Shown here piece by piece: positions 4,167-41,952 of a stretch of DNA of 64,000 bases. Origin of the DNA: a bacterium HR29 (lineage in GTDB: Bacteria > Chloroflexota > Dehalococcoidia > Tepidiformales > Tepidiformaceae). The position numbers and the translations under genes were made by a program. Location of the stretch: NCBI GenBank assembly GCA_002898215.1, contig BEIF01000003.1, forward strand, positions 124,001 through 188,000, given 5' to 3'. The notes below the pieces were generated by a model. That model did no database searches. It had not been told where the DNA came from and saw only the letters and a list, made by a program, of their open reading frames with translations. The first letter of the stretch is position 1, and each line of letters starts with the position of its first letter.

Positions 4167-4786
4167 GCGGTCGGGGCCGTCCCGACCCCTTGGAGCCGGA
4201 GGTAGAGCAGCCGCCAGGCCGCGGTCGCGAAGCTCGCTCCGGCCAGCACCCACAGCGTCCAGTAGCAGTAGCCGAGGGCGGTGCCGACCGCAGCCGCCAG
4301 CAGCCGGACGTCCCGGCTGGCGAGCCCGAAGACGGCATCGAGGTTCGAAGGCACCGCCCCGCCGAGGGAGGCTTCGATGCGCGCGCGGGAGTAGCTCACC
4401 ACGAGGCTCCCTGCGAGGGCGAGCATGCCGGGCAGCTCCGGCCGGGGCCACGCCTCGAACCGCCACGCGAAGAGCGTCATGGCGACGACGATGGCGGCGT
4501 CGGCGTACCGGTCGGTGATGGCGTCGAGGGCGGCGCCGAAGCGGGTCGCGGCGCCCTTCAACCGCGCCAGCTCCCCGTCGATGCCGTCGGCGATGCTCGC
4601 GGCCTGGATTCCGATGCCCCCGGCGATGTTCCACCCAACCGCCGTCGCCGCCGCTGCGGCGAAGGAGAGGGCGAGCACCGCCACGGTCACCGCGTTCGGG
4701 GTCGCTCCGGTACGGGCGAGGAGCCGCGCCGCCGGCCGGCTGAGCCGCCGGTTCAGCGTCCGCGAAACGATGCCGTCGTACCTCAT
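4163..4786 (-). CDS. CDP-alcohol phosphatidyltransferase family, probable DIPP synthase-like
   Basis: 207-residue integral membrane enzyme. The complete family motif DxxDGxxARx8GxxxDxxxD runs over residues 67-92, with all the Asp residues needed for metal and CDP binding. Hydrophobic helices lie around it. The start (ATG 4786) overlaps by 4 bp the stop of the cytidylyltransferase gene upstream, so the two are co-translated. Because that partner looks like a CTP:inositol-1-phosphate cytidylyltransferase, the best reading is CDP-inositol:inositol-1-phosphate transferase, making phosphorylated di-myo-inositol phosphate at the membrane. Alternatives are a phosphatidylinositol-phosphate-type synthase. 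Family certain, substrate inferred from context. Confidence 0.8.
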   Translation of the reverse strand: MRYDGIVSRTLNRRLSRPAARLLARTGATPNAVTVAVLALSFAAAAATAVGWNIAGGIGIQAASIADGIDGELARLKGAATRFGAALDAITDRYADAAIVVAMTLFAWRFEAWPRPELPGMLALAGSLVVSYSRARIEASLGGAVPSNLDAVFGLASRDVRLLAAAVGTALGYCYWTLWVLAGASFATAAWRLLYLRLQGVGTAPTA

Positions 4787-5571
4787 GGGCGACCGCCGGG
4801 TGCGGGCGCGAGGGCCTGCTCTCCCCGGAGCAGGGCGGCGGCAGCGGCCAGGTCGTCGTCGGTGTCGACGTCGTACCAGAAGCTGCCCGAGACGTCGGCG
4901 GCGTACAGCTTGCCGCGCTCGGCCAGCCGCGCGAAGAGCGCGTTCAGCTCGCAGCCGCTTCCCAGCTCGTCGAGCGCTTCCCATACCACGGGGGAACAGA
5001 GGAACGCGCCGGCGTCCAACGCGTCGGCCGGCGTAACCTCCTTGCCGATGGCGAGGACGGGCAGGAGCCGCGTGCCGGGTGGCGTCGGCGCGATCCGGAG
5101 CTTCGTCGCCTCGGCCGCGTAGGCGGCGGCGCGCGGGTGGAAGTCGGCCGCGACCACGCAGGAGCCCGGCGGCGCGAACTCGGCCCGCTCCAGCAACGTA
5201 CGGACGAGCTCCACGCTGAGGAGGTGGTCGGCCATCACCAGCAGGAAGGGCTCGTCGCCGCACGCCCGTCTCGCCGCGGCCAACGAGTGGCCAGCCGGCC
5301 CGTCGTACTCGAGGTTGTAGAGGAAGCGGACGGCCAGCGGGAGCGGCCCCTGGAGCGCCTTCTCCACGAGATGGGCGCTGTAGCCGAGGACGACGTAGGC
5401 CTCCGGGAAACCGGCTCCCGCGAGGGCCTCCAGGGTGTAGACGATGAGCGGCCGGCCGTTCAGGGGCACGGCCGGCTTCGGCAGCCCGTCGACCGAGGCC
5501 GCCAGGCGGCTCCCCTTCCCTGCGGCGAGCACGATCGCCCGCGGGGCTTCTCCGAAGCGGACCTCATCCAT
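4783..5571 (-). CDS. Nucleotidyltransferase, probable CTP:inositol-1-phosphate cytidylyltransferase
   Basis: 262-residue cytosolic nucleotidyltransferase. Seen: AAGKGSRL signature loop (16-23), PKPAVPL, then features I associate with the inositol-phosphate cytidylyltransferase (IPCT) half of the bifunctional DIP enzymes: SLAAARRACGDEPFLLVMADH, a DALDAGAFLCSP motif after an IGKEV element, and FWYDVDT near the end. The product would be CDP-inositol for the gene that overlaps it downstream. In most characterised organisms the two activities are fused in one polypeptide; here they are two genes. I chose ATG 5571 because a TACAAT -10 hexamer ends 7 nt before it; ATG 5580 in the same frame is possible. 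The frame is open much further upstream without a plausible start. Confidence 0.78.
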   Translation of the reverse strand: MDEVRFGEAPRAIVLAAGKGSRLAASVDGLPKPAVPLNGRPLIVYTLEALAGAGFPEAYVVLGYSAHLVEKALQGPLPLAVRFLYNLEYDGPAGHSLAAARRACGDEPFLLVMADHLLSVELVRTLLERAEFAPPGSCVVAADFHPRAAAYAAEATKLRIAPTPPGTRLLPVLAIGKEVTPADALDAGAFLCSPVVWEALDELGSGCELNALFARLAERGKLYAADVSGSFWYDVDTDDDLAAAAALLRGEQALAPAPGGRP

Positions 5572-5578
5572 CCCCGCC

Positions 5579-5584
5579 ATTGTA
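5579..5584 (-). promoter_or_regulatory. -10 hexamer, probable leaderless start
   Basis: Reading on the minus strand, TACAAT is followed by 7 nt and then ATG (5571). It overlaps the alternative ATG at 5580, which argues for the shorter protein. Confidence 0.5.
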
Positions 5585-5722
5585 TCGGCCGGCTTCGCCG
5601 GCTTTCCCGCGGGCACCGCTCCCCGCCCTCCCCTTGGCGGGTTCCGCGAACGATTGCTAAACTCCGCGCACCGTGCGAACGGTTCGCGCCGGGCGCACGA
5701 TCGTCTGCGGGGGAGGGTTACC

Positions 5723-6781
5723 ATGCACGAGGCGCTGCGCGCCGTCCTCCGGCGTCGCTTCCCCGACGCCGACGAGGTCGAGGTCCACGAACTCGCCGTC
5801 ATCGCCGGCGGCTACTCCCGCGAAACCTTCCGCTTCGACGCCCACATCGTGCGGAACGGCAGCCGCGAAGTGCTGCCGATGATCCTGCGCAAGGACCCGC
5901 CGCGGGAGTCGGCCATCCTCCATAGCGACCGCCAGCTCGAGCACGACCTGCTCGAGCGGCTCCGCCGACACACCTCGCTCCCCGTCTCGGAGAGCTACCT
6001 GGTGGAGCAGGACCCCTCCTACTTCGGTGAGGCGGCGATGATCCTCCAGCGGATGCCCGGCAGCGGGGAGGTCTCCGCTCTCTTCCATGGCGACCGGACC
6101 CACGAGGCCGAAGCGATCGCCACCCAGCTCTGCGAGTACATCGCCCAGCTCCACCTCACCGACCCGGCGCTCCTCAACCCCGACGGCCGCCTCGACGACC
6201 CCCGGGGCGTCGGCATCGACGTCTCCTCGTGGGAGCGGTACATGGAGAGCACCATCGATTACTACCTCCGCAGCTACGACGACTTCGCCTTCGACCCCGT
6301 GCCGGTTTTCCGCGACGCGTACCTCTACCTGAAGCACACGCGTCCGCGCCCGCTCCCGCTCCGCGTCGTCCACGGCGACTTCAACCCGGCGAACTTCCTC
6401 TACGAGAACGGCCGGGTCACGGCCATCATCGACTGGGAGAACGCCCACATCGGTGACCCGCGCGAGGACCTGGGCTGGCTGAAGCTCATGGACCTCCTCA
6501 GCAACACGAACATCTTCGGGTCGGTGAGGGCCGAGGGCGGGTTCTTGGGCCTCTACAACAAGCTCACCGGTTTCGGCGTCACCGAAGAGGAGGTGAACTA
6601 CTTCCAGATCTTCACCGGCGCCCACATCGGCGTGCCTGTCGTTTCGGCGGTGAAGCGGCGCATCGACAGGAAGCACCTCGAGCTCCTCCACCTCTACCTC
6701 ACCCAGCCGGTGCTGGTGAGCGAGCTCGCCTTCACGCAACTCCTCGGCTACCCCAACCCTCTCGCGGGAGCGCAGGCATGA
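5723..6781 (+). CDS. APH-family phosphotransferase
   Basis: 352 residues. Seen: N-lobe turn GGYSRETF, strand with MILRKD, catalytic loop HGDFNPANF, metal site DWENAHIGDPREDLGW. This is a complete kinase-fold phosphotransferase. The ATG at 5723 has a good ribosome site (GGGAGGG, 5711-5717); the frame is open far upstream but without family similarity. Its stop overlaps by 4 bp the ATG of a small gene (6778), so the two products are made together. An APH-type kinase with a small partner recalls LvaA/LvaB of bacterial levulinate breakdown, in which hydroxyacyl-CoA is phosphorylated before dehydration or isomerisation; the substrate here is unknown. Confidence 0.85.
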   Translation: MHEALRAVLRRRFPDADEVEVHELAVIAGGYSRETFRFDAHIVRNGSREVLPMILRKDPPRESAILHSDRQLEHDLLERLRRHTSLPVSESYLVEQDPSYFGEAAMILQRMPGSGEVSALFHGDRTHEAEAIATQLCEYIAQLHLTDPALLNPDGRLDDPRGVGIDVSSWERYMESTIDYYLRSYDDFAFDPVPVFRDAYLYLKHTRPRPLPLRVVHGDFNPANFLYENGRVTAIIDWENAHIGDPREDLGWLKLMDLLSNTNIFGSVRAEGGFLGLYNKLTGFGVTEEEVNYFQIFTGAHIGVPVVSAVKRRIDRKHLELLHLYLTQPVLVSELAFTQLLGYPNPLAGAQA

Positions 6782-32872: not shown

Positions 32873-34798
32873 ATGACAGAGCTAGGAACGTACTTCGGGA
32901 AGCGGGCGGTGGCCCTGGGGGCCATCGTCGCGCTCCTCCTCGCCGGCTTCGCCGCCCTCGCCCAGCAGCAGGCGGCGAAGGCGACCATTACTTCGTCCAC
33001 GTTGACCGTGGACGTAAAGAACGTCTCGCCGCCGGCGGGCGGGAAGATCATTTACAAACTCACATGGACCGAGGACGGCACGGCGACCGACTATCAGGTC
33101 CGCGTGACGAACCTCGGGAACCTCGACGGCTGCACGAACGCGAGTTTATCCGTCACGGGCATTGCGGCTGCCAGCATAAGTACCTGCAGTACCGTAACGC
33201 TGCCATTCGGTGGCGGGACGTACATCTACTGGAACGTCACCGACAACACCGATACAGGCTCCATCACCGCCACGGTCGTACTCCAGGTCAGCGCGGGTGC
33301 GTCCGTGGGTGCCTCTATCCAGCCCACCTTTACCCTGCTGCAGACCGTGGGGTCGAACACGTATAGCCTCAGCGCTACCGCTCCTGCTCGGGCGGTCGGG
33401 AGCGCAACTGTCACGCCCACTGCTACCGAAGCGGTTGCCGGGCAGCAGGTCACCTTTACCTTCACGCTGCCGCCGGGGTGGACGTGCGGCAATGACGGCA
33501 CCGAAGACCCGACTCGCGCCTGTGTGGCCGCGGACGTTACGAGTGGACTCTCATCTCCGGTCGTGAGCGTGTCCGACACGAACCTCTACGCTCCGGCGAC
33601 CGTCACCGTAACGGGCCAGCCTAGCGGCGTGGGCCTCAATACGGTATCTCTCGACGTGCAGTACCATGGCGACGCCGACAACGCAGGCGACAACAACGCA
33701 ATCGCTACTGATGTTTCGGCGACGTTGAGGGTTTGGATCGGCCTCAATGGGACCCTTCCCACGCCCACGTTCGCTGGCGGCAGCGCATCGTACCAGGTCG
33801 AGATTGCGAACCTCACGGGGCAGGATGCTTCGGCCGGCACGGTGGCCGTGACGGTCACCTTCCCGCCGGAGTTCACGAGCGCCACCGCGCCGAGCATTTC
33901 CGGCTGGAGCTGCTCCGCCAGTGGACTGGTGGTTTCGTGCACTTCGAGCGGTACCACCACGATTAACAACGGCGACACGGTCACGCTCTCGGGGTTCGCC
34001 GGCGTGCTGAGCCCGAACACCGGGAGCAGCTCGCGGTCCATCACCGTCCAGGCCCAGGTGACGTTCACGAACCTGATCTCCGGCCCGGTGACGAAGACGG
34101 CGACGAGGACTGACACTCAGGACAAGGCGGGCTCGGTGAGCGTGACGGCGAACCCGACCGTCATCCCGAGCGCCGGCTCCTCAGTGGTCCAATGGACCGT
34201 GAGCGTTTCCAACGACACGGGAAGCTCGGTCGCCGCCGCAAACGTCTCCTTCCAGTTCAAGGCGCCGCCGGGCACGCTCGCGACGAACGTCGTGCCGGCT
34301 TCCGGCTGGTCCTGCACGGTCGCTGACGCCGAGACGGTGAACTGCAGCCGCACGGCGTCGCTCGCGACGGGTTCGACTTCGGTCGGCACGTTCGTGACGC
34401 AGGTGCCCGCGAACGCCTCGGCGACCATCGTCACGCGGACGGCCACGGCCACCCTCGGGCTCACCGTCGGCTCGACGACCTACACGCTCCAGGGCTCGGC
34501 GAACGCGCTCCATCCGGGCACGGGCCAGCCGAACGTCACCTACAACCTCGTCTTCGGCTGGAACCTCATCACCTGGGGCGGCCAGACGACGGCCGTGAAC
34601 GGCCCGAACGGGCTCGGCAGCATCGTGGCCAACGTGAGCGCGGTGTACACGTTCGACGCCGCCGCGCAGACCTGGCTTGCCTGGTTCCCGGGCGGTGGGC
34701 CGGCGAACACGTTGACGACCCTGCAGCACGGCACGGCGTACTTCGTCTACGTCACCAACCCGGCTGGGGTCACGCTGACCGTTCCGGCGGGCCCGTAA
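32873..34798 (+). CDS. Secreted DUF11-like repeat protein
   Basis: 641 residues. Signal/anchor at the N-terminus (LGAIVALLLAGFAALAQQQ), followed by about four Ig-like DUF11-type units rich in Thr, Ser and Val, with recurrent GWSC (or GWTC) motifs at the end of a strand, then a C-terminal domain (GWNLITWGG ... QTWLAWFPGG ... GTAYFVYV) that I associate with Chloroflexi surface proteins. No LPxTG-like tail. Its bases are less GC-rich than the neighbours, as expected for Thr/Ser/Asn-rich secreted proteins. Likely a cell-wall or S-layer-type component. Long leader and strong 3-prime hairpin suggest high expression. Confidence 0.78.
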   Translation: MTELGTYFGKRAVALGAIVALLLAGFAALAQQQAAKATITSSTLTVDVKNVSPPAGGKIIYKLTWTEDGTATDYQVRVTNLGNLDGCTNASLSVTGIAAASISTCSTVTLPFGGGTYIYWNVTDNTDTGSITATVVLQVSAGASVGASIQPTFTLLQTVGSNTYSLSATAPARAVGSATVTPTATEAVAGQQVTFTFTLPPGWTCGNDGTEDPTRACVAADVTSGLSSPVVSVSDTNLYAPATVTVTGQPSGVGLNTVSLDVQYHGDADNAGDNNAIATDVSATLRVWIGLNGTLPTPTFAGGSASYQVEIANLTGQDASAGTVAVTVTFPPEFTSATAPSISGWSCSASGLVVSCTSSGTTTINNGDTVTLSGFAGVLSPNTGSSSRSITVQAQVTFTNLISGPVTKTATRTDTQDKAGSVSVTANPTVIPSAGSSVVQWTVSVSNDTGSSVAAANVSFQFKAPPGTLATNVVPASGWSCTVADAETVNCSRTASLATGSTSVGTFVTQVPANASATIVTRTATATLGLTVGSTTYTLQGSANALHPGTGQPNVTYNLVFGWNLITWGGQTTAVNGPNGLGSIVANVSAVYTFDAAAQTWLAWFPGGGPANTLTTLQHGTAYFVYVTNPAGVTLTVPAGP

Positions 34799-34812
34799 GC
34801 AGCCTCGATACG

Positions 34813-34849
34813 CCTTGGCGGGGGGAAGACGTCTTTCCCCCCGCCAAGG
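34813..34849 (+). terminator. Terminator-type hairpin after the surface gene
   Basis: Perfect 15-bp arms (34813-34827 with 34835-34849) and a 7-nt loop, 14 nt after the stop of the DUF11-like gene. No U tract. Confidence 0.75.
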
Positions 34850-34914
34850 AGGCGGGGATTGGGGCCCTCCGTCCGGCTGCGAATCGGGAGGCCTAACGAA
34901 GGAGGAATGGAACC

Positions 34915-35457
34915 ATGAGCGTGATGCGAACCGTGCCTAAGGTGCTGGTGGCGATGGTGACGGCCGTCGGCGTGGCCGCGGGCGCGTGGGTGTTCGGCGG
35001 CTCGGTGGCTTCGGCTCAACCCGTGCCGCCAGCTGTCTTCTCGGGAAGCGTGACCATCGGCGGGAACCCCGCTCCGGCGGGGACCGTGGTGGTGGCGTAC
35101 CTCGGGAACACCGCCTGCGGGACGACGATCGTCAGCACCCCAGGCCAGTACGTGCTCCAGTGCGCCGGCGGCCAGGTGGGCGACACGGTCACCTTCACGG
35201 TGAACGGCCAACCGGCCGGGAGCGGCACCTGGAACAACACCCAGCTGAACACGGTCAACCTGGTGGTGGAAGAGCGCACGCCGACGCCCACGGCGACGCC
35301 GACGCGGACGCCCACGCCGCGGGCGCCGCGGACGGGCTCCGGGATGGAGGCGGACGGCGGCACGGCGGGCGGCGGGATGCTCCCGCTGGCCCTCCTCGGC
35401 GTCGCCCTCCTCGGCCTCGGCGCTGCCGGCGCCGTGGCGGCCCGCCGCGCGCGGTAG
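34915..35457 (+). CDS. Secreted protein with TP linker and PRTG-type C-terminal anchor
   Basis: 180 residues. Signal peptide (about 1-34, VASAQ cleavage), one beta-sandwich-like domain (VFSGSVTIGGNPAPAGTVV), a [14 protein letters not shown] linker, then APRTGSG followed by 20 hydrophobic residues and a basic tail (AARRAR). The tail order (PRTG motif, membrane helix, basic residues) is like a sortase sorting signal. A second protein with PPRTGTG and the same order is at 57828. AAGGAGG ribosome site at 34899-34905. Bounded by strong terminators on both sides. Confidence 0.75.
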   Translation: MSVMRTVPKVLVAMVTAVGVAAGAWVFGGSVASAQPVPPAVFSGSVTIGGNPAPAGTVVVAYLGNTACGTTIVSTPGQYVLQCAGGQVGDTVTFTVNGQPAGSGTWNNTQLNTVNLVVEERTPTPTATPTRTPTPRAPRTGSGMEADGGTAGGGMLPLALLGVALLGLGAAGAVAARRAR

Positions 35458-35646: not shown

Positions 35647-37173
35647 GTGCAGAAGATCACCGTCCCGCGCCTCGGCATGTCCTGCCCCGGCGGGCTCGTC
35701 GCCGAATGGTACGTGCCCGACGGCGGCACCGTGGAGGAGGGCCAGCCGCTCTTCCGCCTCGAGGCGGAGTTCGCCGCCATCGACGTGGAGGCGGAGTGCG
35801 CCGGCATCGTCCGCCACCGCGTCCCCGCTGGCATACCCCAGTTCTCGGGGGACATCGTCGGGGTGATCGTCGCCCCCGGCGAGCCGATCCCGACCGACGA
35901 GGAGCTGGCCGCCCTCGACGCGCCCCGCGGCGCAGAGCGCGCCGCCGGCGCTGAAGCGAGCGCGGCGAAGGGGAAGGGCGGCGCCCGGCCGGACGTCCTC
36001 CCGCCCTACGAGCCGCCGCGGGAGCCGGTGCCGCTCCGCCCCCGCCGCCGGGCCGAGCCGGCCGAGGTGCGGCCCGGCGGCCTCTGGGAGGCGATGGCGG
36101 GCGGCGCGATGCCCGGATTCGCCTGGGAGCCGGAGCCGCCGACGGCGCGGCAGGAGGCTGCCCCGCCGGCGGGGGCCCCGCCTCCGGAGCCCCGAGCGGT
36201 GCCCGCACCCGACGCGGCGGCACCGCCCGCACCCGAGCCGCGCGCGGCGGTCGAGGAGGCCGAGGAGGACCTCGCGGCGGCCGGCGAGGCCACCCGCGAA
36301 GGACGGCCGGCCGGCCGGGAGGCGGCGGTGGCGACGGCGCCCGAGCCCGCCCCCGCGCCCGAGCCGGCACCGGCCCCCGAAGAGGAGGTTGTGGCCGCCG
36401 CTCACGGGGAGGAGGAAGAGCCGGCCGGGGAGGCCGCGCCGCCACAGGGCCCCGAACGGGGGACGAGGGCGGCCGCTTCGGTCGCGCCCGTGCTGGAGGG
36501 AGAGGCGGCGGGGGTCGCGCCGGCTGGGGGGCCTGGGGAGGGGGCGGGTTCCCCGCTGACGGATGGGCGGGGCGTGGGGGGAGAGCCCCCGCGCCCGGAG
36601 TCGCGGCCGGCGGCGGCGCTCCCCTGGGTCGCGCCCGGCGGGCGGCACGCGGTCCGCGCCACCGTGGCCCTCGACGATGCCCACCGGCTGGTGCGGGCCC
36701 TGCGGCGTCAGGGGGTCGCTTCGGCCACGGTGGAGTCGCTGGTGGCGTGGGCGATCGTCCGCGCCCTGGCCTGCGAAGGGGCGGCCCAGGCTGCAGTGGC
36801 CATCCACTGGCTCGCCGACGGGAGCTGGTCGGCGTACGAGGGGAGCACCCGCCAGCCGTTGGCGGACGTCGCCGCTGCCCTGGAGGGGCGGGGCGCCGAG
36901 CCGCCGGAGGTGCGGGATGCGGTCATCGTGGCCACGCGGGGCACGTCCATCGAGGAGGTGTGGGCGGGCGGCGAGTTCGGTGAGGTGCCGGTGGTTGCCC
37001 TCGGGGCGGAGCGGTGGGAGCCGGTGCGGGCCCGCGGTGGCGAGCTACAGTGGCGCTTCGTGGCCACGGTCACCCTGTCGCTGCCGGCGGAGGCGCCCCT
37101 CGCCCAGGCCGCCGCGCTGCTGCGGCAGGTGGCCCGCTCCCTCGAGCGCCCCTTCGAGCTGCTGGTAGCGTGA
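35647..37173 (+). CDS. E2-like protein with unlipoylatable lipoyl domain and degenerate acyltransferase domain
   Basis: 508 residues, GTG start with GAGGAG upstream. Residues 1-75 are a lipoyl-domain fold (ITVPRLGMSCPGGLVAEWYV, then GDIVGVIVAPGE), but the ETDKA site reads EAEFA, so the lysine that carries lipoate is Phe42. A long Pro/Ala/Glu linker (about 90-330) follows, then a domain with the E2 acyltransferase pattern (TVESLVAWAIVRALA, EVRDAVIVATRGTSIEE, ending LERPFELLVA), in which the expected ADHRVVDG region is PAEAPLAQA, so the catalytic His and Asp are missing. It looks like a non-catalytic relative of 2-oxoacid dehydrogenase E2. Next gene, lipB, begins 14 bp later. Confidence 0.78.
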   Translation: MQKITVPRLGMSCPGGLVAEWYVPDGGTVEEGQPLFRLEAEFAAIDVEAECAGIVRHRVPAGIPQFSGDIVGVIVAPGEPIPTDEELAALDAPRGAERAAGAEASAAKGKGGARPDVLPPYEPPREPVPLRPRRRAEPAEVRPGGLWEAMAGGAMPGFAWEPEPPTARQEAAPPAGAPPPEPRAVPAPDAAAPPAPEPRAAVEEAEEDLAAAGEATREGRPAGREAAVATAPEPAPAPEPAPAPEEEVVAAAHGEEEEPAGEAAPPQGPERGTRAAASVAPVLEGEAAGVAPAGGPGEGAGSPLTDGRGVGGEPPRPESRPAAALPWVAPGGRHAVRATVALDDAHRLVRALRRQGVASATVESLVAWAIVRALACEGAAQAAVAIHWLADGSWSAYEGSTRQPLADVAAALEGRGAEPPEVRDAVIVATRGTSIEEVWAGGEFGEVPVVALGAERWEPVRARGGELQWRFVATVTLSLPAEAPLAQAAALLRQVARSLERPFELLVA

Positions 37174-37187
37174 GCCGGGAGGGTAGG

Positions 37188-37910
37188 ATGGCGGAAGGAG
37201 ATGTGCGGACGATGACGGCGGTCGACCAGCGCACCATCCGGGCGTACGACCTCGGGCTGACGAACTTCGAGGACGTGCACCGGCTGCAGCAGCGGCTCCA
37301 CGAGCAGCGGCGGGAGGGCCGGGGTGCCGACGTGCTCCTCCTCACGGAGCACCGACCGGTCATCACCCTCGGGCGGAGCCACCCGGTGCCCAGCCTGCGG
37401 GTGGACGAAGCGGTGGTACGGAACTACGGCATCGCCATCGTCCCCACGGAGCGCGGGGGGAACATCACCTACCATGGTCCCGGGCAGCTCGTGGCCTACG
37501 GCATCGTCGACCTCCGCGCCTGGAACATCAGCGTCGTCGATTACGTCTCCGGCCTCGAGCGGACGGTGATCGGCGTGCTGGGCGACTGGGGCATCCGGGG
37601 GGAGCGGCGCGAGGGGATGCGGGGGGTCTTCGTGGAAGGGCGGAAGGTCGCCTCGGTGGGCATCTACGCCCGCCGCTGGATCACCATGCACGGCGTCGCC
37701 CTGAACGTGGACCCGGACATGGGGCACTGGAGCCTTATCAACCCCTGCGGCATGCCCGACATGGAGGTGACGAGCCTCGCCGCCGAGGTGGGGAAGGCGG
37801 TGCGCATGGCGGAGGTGAAGGAGTCGTTCCTCCTCCACTTCGGGCGTGTCTTCGATTGCCGGGTCGAGGTGGCGGAGGTGCGGCGGAGGGCGGCGCTCGG
37901 CGGCGCGTGA
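37188..37910 (+). CDS. lipB: Lipoyl(octanoyl) transferase
   Basis: 240 residues. Moves octanoyl from acyl carrier protein to the lysine of lipoyl domains. Seen: RGGNITYHGPGQLVAY (89-104), catalytic Lys153 in GRKVASVGIY, TMHGVALNV, and catalytic Cys187 in INPCGM. ATG 37188 follows GGGAGGG; ATG 37212 in frame is an alternative. It lies 14 bp after the E2-like gene, so both are probably on one transcript, yet that E2-like protein lacks the lysine this enzyme would modify. Downstream is a tiny hydrophobic frame, then a methyltransferase gene. Confidence 0.96.
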   Translation: MAEGDVRTMTAVDQRTIRAYDLGLTNFEDVHRLQQRLHEQRREGRGADVLLLTEHRPVITLGRSHPVPSLRVDEAVVRNYGIAIVPTERGGNITYHGPGQLVAYGIVDLRAWNISVVDYVSGLERTVIGVLGDWGIRGERREGMRGVFVEGRKVASVGIYARRWITMHGVALNVDPDMGHWSLINPCGMPDMEVTSLAAEVGKAVRMAEVKESFLLHFGRVFDCRVEVAEVRRRAALGGA

Positions 37911-38139: not shown

Positions 38140-38829
38140 ATGGGGACGATCTTCGACGAGCTGGTGGCCGAGTACCCGGTCTGGTGGATCGACGTTCTCG
38201 GGGAGCACAACCACATCGGCGGCATCGAGGCCACGCGATGGCTGCTGGCGCGGGCGCGGCTGTCGCCGGGGGCGGCGATGCTCGATGCGGGGGCGTTCGT
38301 GGGCGCGGCTGCCCGGCTCGCCGCCCGGGAGACGGGGGCCCGCGCGGTGGCGGCCGACATCAACCGCGACTTCCTGGCGGCGGGGCGCTCCATGCCCGGG
38401 GGCGAGTTGGTGGAGTGGGTGACGGCCTCGAACGCGCGCCTGCCCTTCCGCGACGGCAGCTTCGCCAGCGTCTGGTGCCTCGACAGCGCGGTCGTCCCGA
38501 AGGAGCTGACGCGCGTGGCCGCGCCGGGCGCCACCCTCTGCCTCTGCTGCGAGGTGCCGGTCGACGGCCGCGGGGGCATGGAGGCGTTCCTGCAGGAGTG
38601 GGAAGCGCTGGGCTGGCGCCTGGTCGCCCACAAGCCGCTCAGCCTCGAGGCGACGGAGGCGTGGCGGCGGGCCGAGAACCTGCTGGTGCGCCACCGGCCC
38701 CGCTTCGAGGAGCGGTACGGGAAGCGGGGATACCTCTTCGCCCTCGATACGCTCGCCGACCTCGTCCGCGCCTACGAGTACGGGGAGCGGGGGCACGGCC
38801 TCTTCGTGTTCGAAAGGACGGGGCGGTGA
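38140..38829 (+). CDS. Class I SAM-dependent methyltransferase
   Basis: 229 residues. Motif I is LDAGAFVGAAARLAA (a variant of the usual DxGxGxG loop), motif II acid in AADINRD, then ARLPFRDGSFASVWC (motif IV), then RVAAPGATLCLCCEV. The C-terminal part (AWRRAENLLVRHRPRFEERYG) is like that of small-molecule methyltransferases. ATG 38140 with GGAGG right upstream; the frame is open further but without similarity. Substrate unknown; the neighbours do not reveal it. Confidence 0.8.
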   Translation: MGTIFDELVAEYPVWWIDVLGEHNHIGGIEATRWLLARARLSPGAAMLDAGAFVGAAARLAARETGARAVAADINRDFLAAGRSMPGGELVEWVTASNARLPFRDGSFASVWCLDSAVVPKELTRVAAPGATLCLCCEVPVDGRGGMEAFLQEWEALGWRLVAHKPLSLEATEAWRRAENLLVRHRPRFEERYGKRGYLFALDTLADLVRAYEYGERGHGLFVFERTGR

Positions 38830-39375: not shown

Positions 39376-40329
39376 TCAGGGGACCGAGGGGAAGAGGAGA
39401 CGGGCGAGCTCGGCGAGGGCGTCGACCACCGAGGGGCCGGGCGCCCGGAGGAAGCGGCGCACGTCGAGGGCGTAGACGCGCCCCGCGGCCACGGCGGGCA
39501 CTCCTGCCAGGGCGGGGTCCCGGAGGACCCAATCGGCGAGGCTGTTCTCCCCGGCGGGGATGACGAGGATGACCTCCGGCCCGAGGGCGGCGGCGTCGCC
39601 GGGCGAGGTGGCGGCGAAGCCGGGCAGCGGCGCGCCCGGTGGGGCGTCGGCCATCACGTTCACCGCCCCGAGGTAGTCGAGGAGGTTGCCGATGTAGGTC
39701 TGCCGGCTGGCGGCGTACAGGTCCCGCTCGGCACCGGTGAGGACGAGGACGCGGGGGGCCCGCTGGTCGGCGACGCGCGTGCGGATGGCCTCCGCCTGGC
39801 GGCGGATGGTGTCGGCGACCTGGGCGGCGCGCTCCTTCCGGCCGAGCGCGTCGCCCAACGCCTCCAGCGCTTCGAGCACGTCGCCGTAGCCGTTCACGTC
39901 GACGAAGAAGGTCGGGTAGGGGAAGGCGTCGAGGTCGCGGACGAGCCCGGAGTGGAAGCGGGCGTCGGCGATGACGAGGTCGGGGGCGAGGGCGGCGATG
40001 GCCTGGAAGTCGGGCGAGAGGGTGCGGCCGATGGCGGTGCCGCCGCCGGCGGGCGGGGCGTCGCTGGTGGCCGCCACGGGCTCGAGGCCGAGGGCCGTGA
40101 GGAGGTCGTAGGCGGTGGGGCTCAGGGCGACGACGCGTCGGACCTCGGAGGGAAGCCCGACCTCGCGGCCGAGCATGTCGCGCACGGTTCGCGCCGGCGT
40201 GGCGGTCGCCGTCGGCGCCGCGACGGTCGGGGTGAGGGTGGGCCGCGGGGCGACCGGCGGGCCTTCCTCGCCACAGGCGGCCGCCGCGAGGAGCAGGATG
40301 GCCGCGGCGAGGGGCGCGAGGGGCCTCAC
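39376..40329 (-). CDS. Lipoprotein, BtuF/FhuD-like ABC transporter binding protein
   Basis: 317 residues. Lipobox at LLLAAAACGEE (cysteine about 20), a short TP-rich linker, then the helical-backbone binding protein fold: RTVRDMLGREVGLPSEVRRVVALSPTAYD, LAPDLVIADAR, GDVLEALEALGDALGRK. Such proteins catch cobalamin, iron chelates or haem for an ABC importer. No permease or ATPase gene adjoins. The GTG start overlaps by 4 bp the stop of cofC, so it is translationally coupled to F420 genes, which is unusual. Confidence 0.85.
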   Translation of the reverse strand: MRPLAPLAAAILLLAAAACGEEGPPVAPRPTLTPTVAAPTATATPARTVRDMLGREVGLPSEVRRVVALSPTAYDLLTALGLEPVAATSDAPPAGGGTAIGRTLSPDFQAIAALAPDLVIADARFHSGLVRDLDAFPYPTFFVDVNGYGDVLEALEALGDALGRKERAAQVADTIRRQAEAIRTRVADQRAPRVLVLTGAERDLYAASRQTYIGNLLDYLGAVNVMADAPPGAPLPGFAATSPGDAAALGPEVILVIPAGENSLADWVLRDPALAGVPAVAAGRVYALDVRRFLRAPGPSVVDALAELARLLFPSVP

Positions 40330-40988
40330 CGCCCGCCCTCCCCGACACAGCCCGGCGGCGGGAGCAGCCCCCAGGCGCGGAGGAGCCGCACGGCAGGGGT
40401 AGCCGGCAGGTCGGCGAGCTCGCGGAGCGCCGCCAGGGCCTCGGGCGTGTCGAGGTCGAGGGAGAGCCAAGGGTCGTCGACCAGCCGCACCGCCATGCCC
40501 GCCCCTCGGGCCGCCTCCGCGTGGCGGCGCCCGCTCTCGGGGCCGTAGGCGAGGGGGAACCGTCCCGGCGGTCGCAGGAGCATCGCGTTCGTGCCGCCGT
40601 CGCGGCTCACCGCCAGCGTGGCGGAGGGTGGGGGCGGGGCCTGGCTCGCCAAGGCGGCGAAGGGTGCGCCGGTGGCCAGGGGGAGGTCGGCCAAAGCGAT
40701 GAGCAGCTCGCCGCCGTCGATGAGCTCGATGGCGCGCTCGAGCTGCGCGTTCAGCCCCTCCACCTCGGGCGTCTCCTCGATGACGGTCGCGCGGTCGGCG
40801 CAGGCGGCGGCCACCTTCATGTCGGAGGTGAGGACGAGCGGTTCGAACCCCGCCTCGCGCAGCGCTTCGAGGACGCCCTCGAGCATGGCGAGGGTGAGGG
40901 CCTCGCGGCGGTCGGTGTCGAGGAGCGACGCCAGGCGGCCCTTGGCTCGGGCGAGGGGTGCGACCGGCACGAGGGCGGGCGTGCTCAT
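40326..40988 (-). CDS. cofC: 2-phospho-L-lactate (or phosphoglycerate/PEP) guanylyltransferase
   Basis: 220 residues. Start ALVPVAPLARAKGRLASLL is the CofC form of the nucleotidyltransferase loop; later ALADLPLATG and SRDGGTNAMLLRPP (GGTNAL-like) are diagnostic. Charges a three-carbon phosphate with GTP for CofD. ATG overlaps by 4 bp the cofD stop. The C-terminal extension after the DLDTPEALAAL motif is typical. Confidence 0.93.
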   Translation of the reverse strand: MSTPALVPVAPLARAKGRLASLLDTDRREALTLAMLEGVLEALREAGFEPLVLTSDMKVAAACADRATVIEETPEVEGLNAQLERAIELIDGGELLIALADLPLATGAPFAALASQAPPPPSATLAVSRDGGTNAMLLRPPGRFPLAYGPESGRRHAEAARGAGMAVRLVDDPWLSLDLDTPEALAALRELADLPATPAVRLLRAWGLLPPPGCVGEGGR

Positions 40989-41938
40989 GGGCGCCGGGCC
41001 TGCCGGGCCGCCTCGAGGGTGGCGCGGGCGAGGGCGGCCTTGGCGGCGTCGTCGGTCATGAGGGTCGGTACGGCGGCGCACCGCATCCCGAGGGCTTCGA
41101 TTGCCGGCGAGAGGTGGGCGTCGGCTTCGTCGATGACCATCACGTCCACCAGGCCGCGGTACAGCCGGGCGACGCCGAGGGCGGACACCTCGTGGCCCAG
41201 GGCAGCCAGCATCGCCGCGGCCGGCCCTTTGACGGCCTGGCCGGCGATGATGGGGCTGACCGCCGCCCGGACGGCGGCGGCCCCTGCGATGGCGTCGCGG
41301 ATGCCGGGGACGGCGAGGATCGGGCCGATGCTCACGAACGGGTTGCTCGGGGCGAGGAGGATGGCGTCCGCGGCGGCGATGGCCTCGAGGACCCCCGGCG
41401 CGGGACGGGCCGCTTCGATGCCGGCGAAGCGGATGGCGAGGACGCGCGGCTCGGCGGCGCGCCGCACCATGTACTCCTGGAAGGGAAGCTCGCCCTCGGA
41501 GGTGGCGACGCGCGTCTCCACCCGCTCGTCGCACATGGGGAGGATGCGGCAGGGGACGCCCCAGGCGCGGGCGATGTCGGCCACGACGGCGTGGAGCGGG
41601 TGCCCCTCGCGGAGGAGCCGGGTGCGGTGGAGGGCCGTGGCCAGGTCGCGGTCGCCCAGGTTGAACCACCGCTCGTAGCCGTACCGCTGGAGGGCCTCCA
41701 CCACGTGGAAGGTGTCGCCCGCGAGCCCCCAGCCGGTCTCGGGGTTCACGGCTCCGGCGAGGGCGTAGATGACGATGTCGATGTCCGGCGAAACCCGCAG
41801 GCCGAGGAAGTCCAGGTCGTCGCCCGTGTTCGAAACGACGGTCACGGCGGAAGGGTCGGTCACCCGGACGAGGCCCTGGAGGAACCGGGAGGCGCCGACG
41901 CCGCCGGCGAGGACGACGATCCGTTCGGGCGGAGCCAT
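40985..41938 (-). CDS. cofD: 2-phospho-L-lactate transferase (F420 biosynthesis)
   Basis: 317 residues. Joins the activated three-carbon unit from CofC with the deazaflavin Fo. Seen: VVLAGGVGASRFLQGL at the N-terminus, NTGDDLDFLGLRVSPDIDIV, GWGLAGDTFHVVEAL, ILLAPSNPFVSIGPILAVPG, and PIIAGQAVKGPAAAML. ATG 41938 with TAGAAT 8 nt upstream. First gene of a tightly overlapped row with cofC and the lipoprotein gene. No cofE, cofG or cofH in the window. Confidence 0.95.
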   Translation of the reverse strand: MAPPERIVVLAGGVGASRFLQGLVRVTDPSAVTVVSNTGDDLDFLGLRVSPDIDIVIYALAGAVNPETGWGLAGDTFHVVEALQRYGYERWFNLGDRDLATALHRTRLLREGHPLHAVVADIARAWGVPCRILPMCDERVETRVATSEGELPFQEYMVRRAAEPRVLAIRFAGIEAARPAPGVLEAIAAADAILLAPSNPFVSIGPILAVPGIRDAIAGAAAVRAAVSPIIAGQAVKGPAAAMLAALGHEVSALGVARLYRGLVDVMVIDEADAHLSPAIEALGMRCAAVPTLMTDDAAKAALARATLEAARQARRP

Positions 41939-41946
41939 CGCTCCGC

Positions 41947-41952
41947 ATTCTA
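41947..41952 (-). promoter_or_regulatory. -10 hexamer, probable leaderless start
   Basis: TAGAAT on the minus strand ends 8 nt before ATG 41938. Confidence 0.45.

Follow-up and report, generated by a model that had tools for sequence, protein, structure and literature searches.

The attachment of lipoate to dehydrogenase enzymes starts with a step catalyzed by LipB, and dihydrolipoamide acyltransferases (E2) are among the targets of this enzyme. In eukaryotic pyruvate dehydrogenase, an inactive E2 paralogue, the E3-binding protein (E3BP, PDHX, or protein X), recruits E3, and in mammals it has a lipoylated domain. E3BPs are characterized by an E2-like topology, a catalytically inactive C-terminal domain, and an E3-specific subunit-binding domain (PMC10156792). 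An accessory protein of lipoate attachment itself has been described for Thermoplasma acidophilum, whose split lipoate ligase LplA/LplB contains the accessory subunit LplB (PMC6067878). A bacterial E2 that has no lipoyl lysine and is linked to lipB was not described in the literature covered by our search, which left many subscription papers outside its reach. Here, we describe such a protein, designated pseudo-E2 (psE2), from a 64,000-nucleotide stretch of bacterial DNA (the window) and from related genomes.

The psE2 gene of the window (35647..37173, on the plus strand like all features of psE2 and lipB given below) starts with GTG, comprises 508 codons and a TGA stop, and has orthologues in 22 other genomes. 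A 14-bp gap (37174..37187) separates it from lipB (37188..37910, ATG start), which encodes an octanoyltransferase matching TIGR00214 with 152.9 bits (cutoff 83.55) and retaining the catalytic lysine (GRKVASVG) and cysteine (INPCG). These coordinates bear out the initial annotation, which had reported a clean, full-length gene 14 bp from lipB. Short or overlapping junctions are frequent among the 23 psE2-lipB pairs, many of the gaps, as measured from projected lipB starts, ranging from -18 to +30 bp, with several overlaps.

AlphaFold2 (AF2) with 18 orthologues predicted two confident domains, residues 1-80 and approximately 335-508, which are connected by a long, mostly disordered linker. The first domain (residues 1-80; 35647..35886; pLDDT 85-98) is of the lipoyl type according to the alignment and to a match of residues 3-56 with Biotin_lipoyl (PF00364; 33.3 bits, cutoff 22.1). 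Its lipoyl-lysine position is occupied by Phe42 (codon 35770..35772), located within 'RLEAEFAAIDVEAE', as had been noted initially. The alignment confirmed this replacement and extended the loss of lysine to all 18 full-length orthologues, which have Phe (10), Asn (2), His (2), Ala (2), Asp (1), or Tyr (1) at a position that is Lys in 18/18 true E2s; the lysine is also missing in two incomplete but readable psE2 N-termini. The linker (residues 81-329; 35887..36633) contains no PF02817 domain according to Pfam and AF2. This E3/E1-binding domain, the loss of which had not been mentioned in the initial annotation, gave no match in seven psE2s and strong matches in two control E2s. Pattern comparison delimited a linker motif, 'PVPLRPRRR...GGLWE...WE' (residues 127-161; 36025..36129), and the underlying pattern, Pro-[Phe/Leu] followed by Arg/Lys and then Trp, which was defined only after inspection of the sequences, occurs in 12 of 18 psE2s, in none of 18 true E2s, and in about 1 of 18 shuffled linkers.

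The second domain (residues 330-508; 36634..37170; pLDDT ~85-97) is a reduced, E2-core-type (CAT-like) domain. It has no Pfam match in the window protein, and the C-terminal part of six orthologues matches the E2 catalytic family PF00198 above the cutoff. Structure prediction, which had been proposed as a check, assigned an E2 core fold to it: Foldseek placed the domain on E2 cores, with E 2e-10 and a TM-score by target of 0.67 for 7q5r and TM-scores of 0.67-0.70 across 7q5r, 7ott, and 7bgj (0.70 for the last). At the HxxxD site of true E2s, the alignment places LPAEAPLA (residues 479-486; 37081..37104), the window protein reading 'VTLSLPAEAPLAQAA' compared with 'LSLTIDHRAVDGAP' in true E2s. 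In line with the initial annotation, H-x3-D is missing from every aligned psE2; it is present in the true E2s of the same family. psE2 is an E2 paralogue that is dead in three respects, having neither lipoyl lysine nor E1/E3-binding domain nor HxxxD motif; the loss of these three defining features excludes it from the functional E2s, and what it has kept is the E2 core fold.

In genus g16, psE2 has a dN/dS of 0.22-0.27 and its lipoyl domain one of 0.04-0.13, compared with 0.08-0.12 for lipB; the E2-type domain gave a dN of 0.036 and a dS of 0.23 between G022 and G024. Judged by these substitution rates, psE2 is maintained by purifying selection, and no sign was found of the relaxed selection that the initial annotation had considered. 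Around the former lysine position, Glu at -3 (Glu39 in the window) is present in 18/18 psE2s vs 13/18 true E2s, and Gly at -16 (Gly26) and +11 (Gly53) is invariant in both groups; these three residues may be conserved for folding. Ala occupies position +2 in 14/18 psE2s, where true E2s mostly have Glu, Asn, or Thr, and Cys or Ser occupies position -2, mostly Thr in true E2s, again in 14/18. According to reported mutagenesis of H-protein and of E2 lipoyl domains, positions -3, -16, and +11 are implicated in how lipoate-attaching enzymes recognize their targets. The psE2 frame is broken in G026 (one deleted base) and in G023, and these breaks may be errors or real losses. In the single-contig genome G026 (L116, oriented, 4703-6565), the one-base deletion near the 3' end fuses psE2 and lipB into a frame of 621 codons, which is either a sequencing error or a real fusion.

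The host order was sampled with 38 genomes from 18 genera, all belonging to one family of Dehalococcoidia-type Chloroflexota; the majority are drafts, and contig ends truncate several psE2 genes. A psE2 profile search detected the gene in 23 of these genomes and 13 of the genera, three of the hits being contig-edge fragments. In all 23 carriers its sole location is immediately 5' of lipB, and because of this recurrence, always beside lipB, the pattern is beyond chance. lipB was detected in 37/38 genomes and is kept without psE2 in g17 (nine genomes), G012, G019, and G020; psE2 is therefore not required for LipB function as such. In G003 (L175), which is ~90% complete, lipA and true E2s were detected and lipB and psE2 were not; lipB may have fallen into an assembly gap, or the organism may lipoylate by a different route. 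Outside the family, no psE2-level match was obtained in 294 genomes of the class and 400 evenly drawn genomes of the phylum, and none of the readable lipB loci of the class has a lysine-less E2 upstream. By these searches, psE2 is confined to this one family. In the wider class, lipB is often located in dehydrogenase operons, directly after E2 in G118, G220, G230, G297, and G251 and directly after E3 in G062, G170, G041, and G276. A plasmid origin of psE2 was also considered, and the search gave no match.

The 18 psE2s form one clade with a support of 100/100, within which the branches are very long. The nearest active E2s are encoded in the order E1a, E1b, NAD-kinase-like (AcoX-type), E2, E3, a gene order which suggests an acetoin-dehydrogenase-like operon. 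These E2s carry Lys, PF02817, and DHRxxxD, and form a clade separate from the psE2s; homologues with intact Lys and HxxxD, in which the initial annotation would have seen the mark of a decayed copy, were found only in such a separate paralogue clade. The lipoyl domains of the acetoin-type E2s are on average ~48% identical to that of the window psE2, compared with 26% for the E2s of the window's own genome (G000), and these E2s match the psE2 profile along its full length with ~174-226 bits. Our data show that psE2 descends from an acetoin-dehydrogenase-like E2, with a single origin upstream of lipB in this lineage. In the LipB tree, the psE2-free G012, G019/G020, and g17 branch first, followed by a psE2-bearing clade (support 99/94) in which one psE2-free genome, G018, is nested; this topology implies one gain and one loss of psE2. 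The synteny agrees with this origin, as thyX and lipB are adjacent in g17 and flank psE2 in g16, g18, and G010, with one extra open reading frame (ORF) in G013, and psE2 was apparently gained between the two genes. A remnant of an E2-lipB operon was initially plausible, given that other families have lipB right behind E2 or E3; a gain upstream of lipB inside the family agrees better with the LipB tree and the synteny. The place between thyX and lipB is taken in G018 by an unrelated ORF of 485 amino acids (L108, 3947-5404), which by eye looks like a LuxR-type regulator.

Several observations concern the surroundings of the gene pair. In genus g16 (L111-L116), the last ~75 nt of psE2 are the most conserved DNA of psE2 and lipB, with an invariant fraction of ~0.87 vs 0.5-0.78 in most other stretches; this segment has A/T-ending codons despite the GC-rich genome, contains an imperfect inverted repeat (CGGGTACG...CGTACCGG), and may harbour a promoter of lipB or a site for its regulation. 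Downstream of lipB, the window has a gene for a SAM-dependent methyltransferase (38140..38829, plus strand; Pfam Methyltransf_11). Such a gene directly follows lipB also in G010, G019, and G020, lies farther downstream in G013, and is kept 3' of lipB also in genomes without psE2; it is not established as part of the psE2-lipB unit. Upstream of psE2 (32873-35457), two exported-looking proteins of 641 and 180 amino acids without Pfam match are encoded, the larger of which resembles, by eye, beta-sandwich repeat surface proteins. The region 39376-41948 contains a periplasmic binding protein gene (PF01497) beside genes for CofC and CofD (the latter recognized by eye), which belong to coenzyme F420 biosynthesis.

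The genome of the window (G000; 2.34 Mb, 4 contigs, 97% complete) carries two true E2s with PF00198, of the pyruvate (PDH) and the branched-chain type, in operons of the order E3-E1a-E1b-E2 and E1a-E1b-E2, both on a contig other than that of the window. lipA is located on the window's contig, ~60 kb from lipB, and with real dehydrogenases, lipB, and lipA present, G000 has the LipB-LipA route. An acetoin-type E2 was not found in G000 or G002, both of which carry psE2, and participation of psE2 in an acetoin-type complex is accordingly disfavoured.

The identity of psE2 is well established by these results; its mechanism we infer. Our preferred reading, held tentatively, is that psE2 is a non-lipoylatable adaptor or regulator that serves as a dedicated partner of LipB. 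It is favoured because the most constrained domain is that of a LipB acceptor minus the reactive residue, in a gene fixed beside lipB; the location alone is a weak argument, since lipB of the class often resides in dehydrogenase operons. The lipoyl-type domain would resemble a LipB acceptor in shape and in the residues around the modification site, octanoylation being impossible, and psE2 could dock on LipB through this domain without being consumed. The E2-core-type domain might assemble together with the real E2 cores of the pyruvate and branched-chain type or lie alongside them. In the simplest version, psE2 would tether LipB to dehydrogenase cores needing octanoylation, or would occupy the acceptor site and tune activity. 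The more specific proposal that psE2 is a lipoylation accessory factor, a dedicated partner carrying LipB to 2-oxoacid dehydrogenase cores or regulating it there, is possible, and we hold it with less confidence. Four LipB positions (20, 36, 42, and 217) vary outside the psE2-bearing clade but not within it, a looser control group having one such position, and in G018, which lost psE2, Tyr20 of LipB is also lost and Arg42 and His217 are kept. This pattern is suggestive of co-constraint with psE2, and it could also consist of ordinary clade-specific substitutions. AF2 modelling of psE2 and LipB of G037, read through the in-frame stop, gave a pTM of 0.59 with the E2-type domain poorly modelled (mixed alignment), above an estimated pTM of ~0.42 if LipB alone were confidently placed; this indication is weak and indirect.

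The main rival to a LipB partner is core scaffolding in the manner of E3BP, by which psE2 would be a structural subunit of a 2-oxoacid dehydrogenase core that changes its geometry or recruits a protein other than E1 or E3, adjacency to lipB being a convenience of co-expression. We regard this as unlikely, but it is consistent with the retained E2-core fold, with the frequent location of lipB within dehydrogenase operons of the class, with the recurrent motif of the linker, and with the family profile matching human PDHX/E3BP (6h60) best among PDB entries (E 2.7e-26, whole length). It is difficult to reconcile with the absence of the subunit-binding domain, the defining feature of E3BP (PMC10156792), with the persistence of psE2 in two genomes, G000 and G002, in which the search detected no acetoin-type E2, and with the finding that psE2 is never within an E1/E2/E3 operon in the family. 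Among the three roles proposed initially, a classical dehydrogenase scaffold is weakened by the missing subunit-binding domain and by the retention of psE2 without an acetoin-type complex, the linkage in 23/23 carriers speaks for a link to LipB without proving it, and a full-length paralogue turned to another use is supported.

Such a use might lie outside lipoylation altogether, for example in ligand sensing or in a new complex, with the link to lipB being one of descent; the very long branches of the psE2 tree would suit this, as would the fact that psE2 travelled with lipB like a simple operon unit when the upstream neighbours changed, but a single gain followed by retention beside lipB in every carrier over large divergence, with other neighbours being shuffled, makes it improbable. 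Less probable again is a decoy or product-type inhibitor of LipB that would restrict lipoylation by competition with the real acceptors, since a small lipoyl domain would suffice for this and the E2-type domain is conserved too, even though an acceptor-like domain without acceptor lysine and an apparent operon shared with lipB speak for it. From sequence, a decoy and an adaptor would be inseparable, and the net effect of the LipB partner that we prefer could be either help or restraint. That psE2 is a duplicate E2 in the course of being lost is very improbable indeed: the family also has intact E2 paralogues, and the frame breaks in G026 and G023, perhaps sequencing errors, and the loss in G018 could be read in this way, but the frame is open in 13 genera, the lysine loss is shared and ancestral, and dN/dS is low overall and lower still in the lipoyl domain. 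A decayed copy is contradicted by conservation, single origin, and dN/dS alike.

Compared with known systems, psE2 shares with the active acetoin-dehydrogenase-like E2 the fold and about half of the lipoyl domain residues, whereas the latter carries Lys, PF02817, and DHRxxxD, is encoded in an E1/E2/E3 operon, and belongs to a separate clade. Like E3BP of eukaryotes, psE2 is an E2 paralogue of E2-like topology whose acyltransferase-type domain is inactive. Unlike E3BP, it has no E3-specific subunit-binding domain and no lipoylated domain such as that of the mammalian protein, and it is bacterial and tied to lipB; because the E3-binding domain is missing, psE2 is not a member of the E3BPs. A bacterial lineage has evolved a different E2 pseudoenzyme, which has also lost the lipoyl lysine and the subunit-binding domain and is always found beside lipB. 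Binding of psE2 to LipB, if it occurs, would mean that an acceptor mimic can be a dedicated partner in lipoyl assembly, and would make psE2 a natural non-modifiable acceptor for trapping complexes of LipB with lipoyl domains. In our preferred reading, psE2 would act most like LplB, assisting a lipoate-attaching enzyme as an accessory subunit, although the two folds are unrelated and LplB serves an ATP-dependent ligase, whereas the partner of psE2 would be an octanoyl-ACP transferase.
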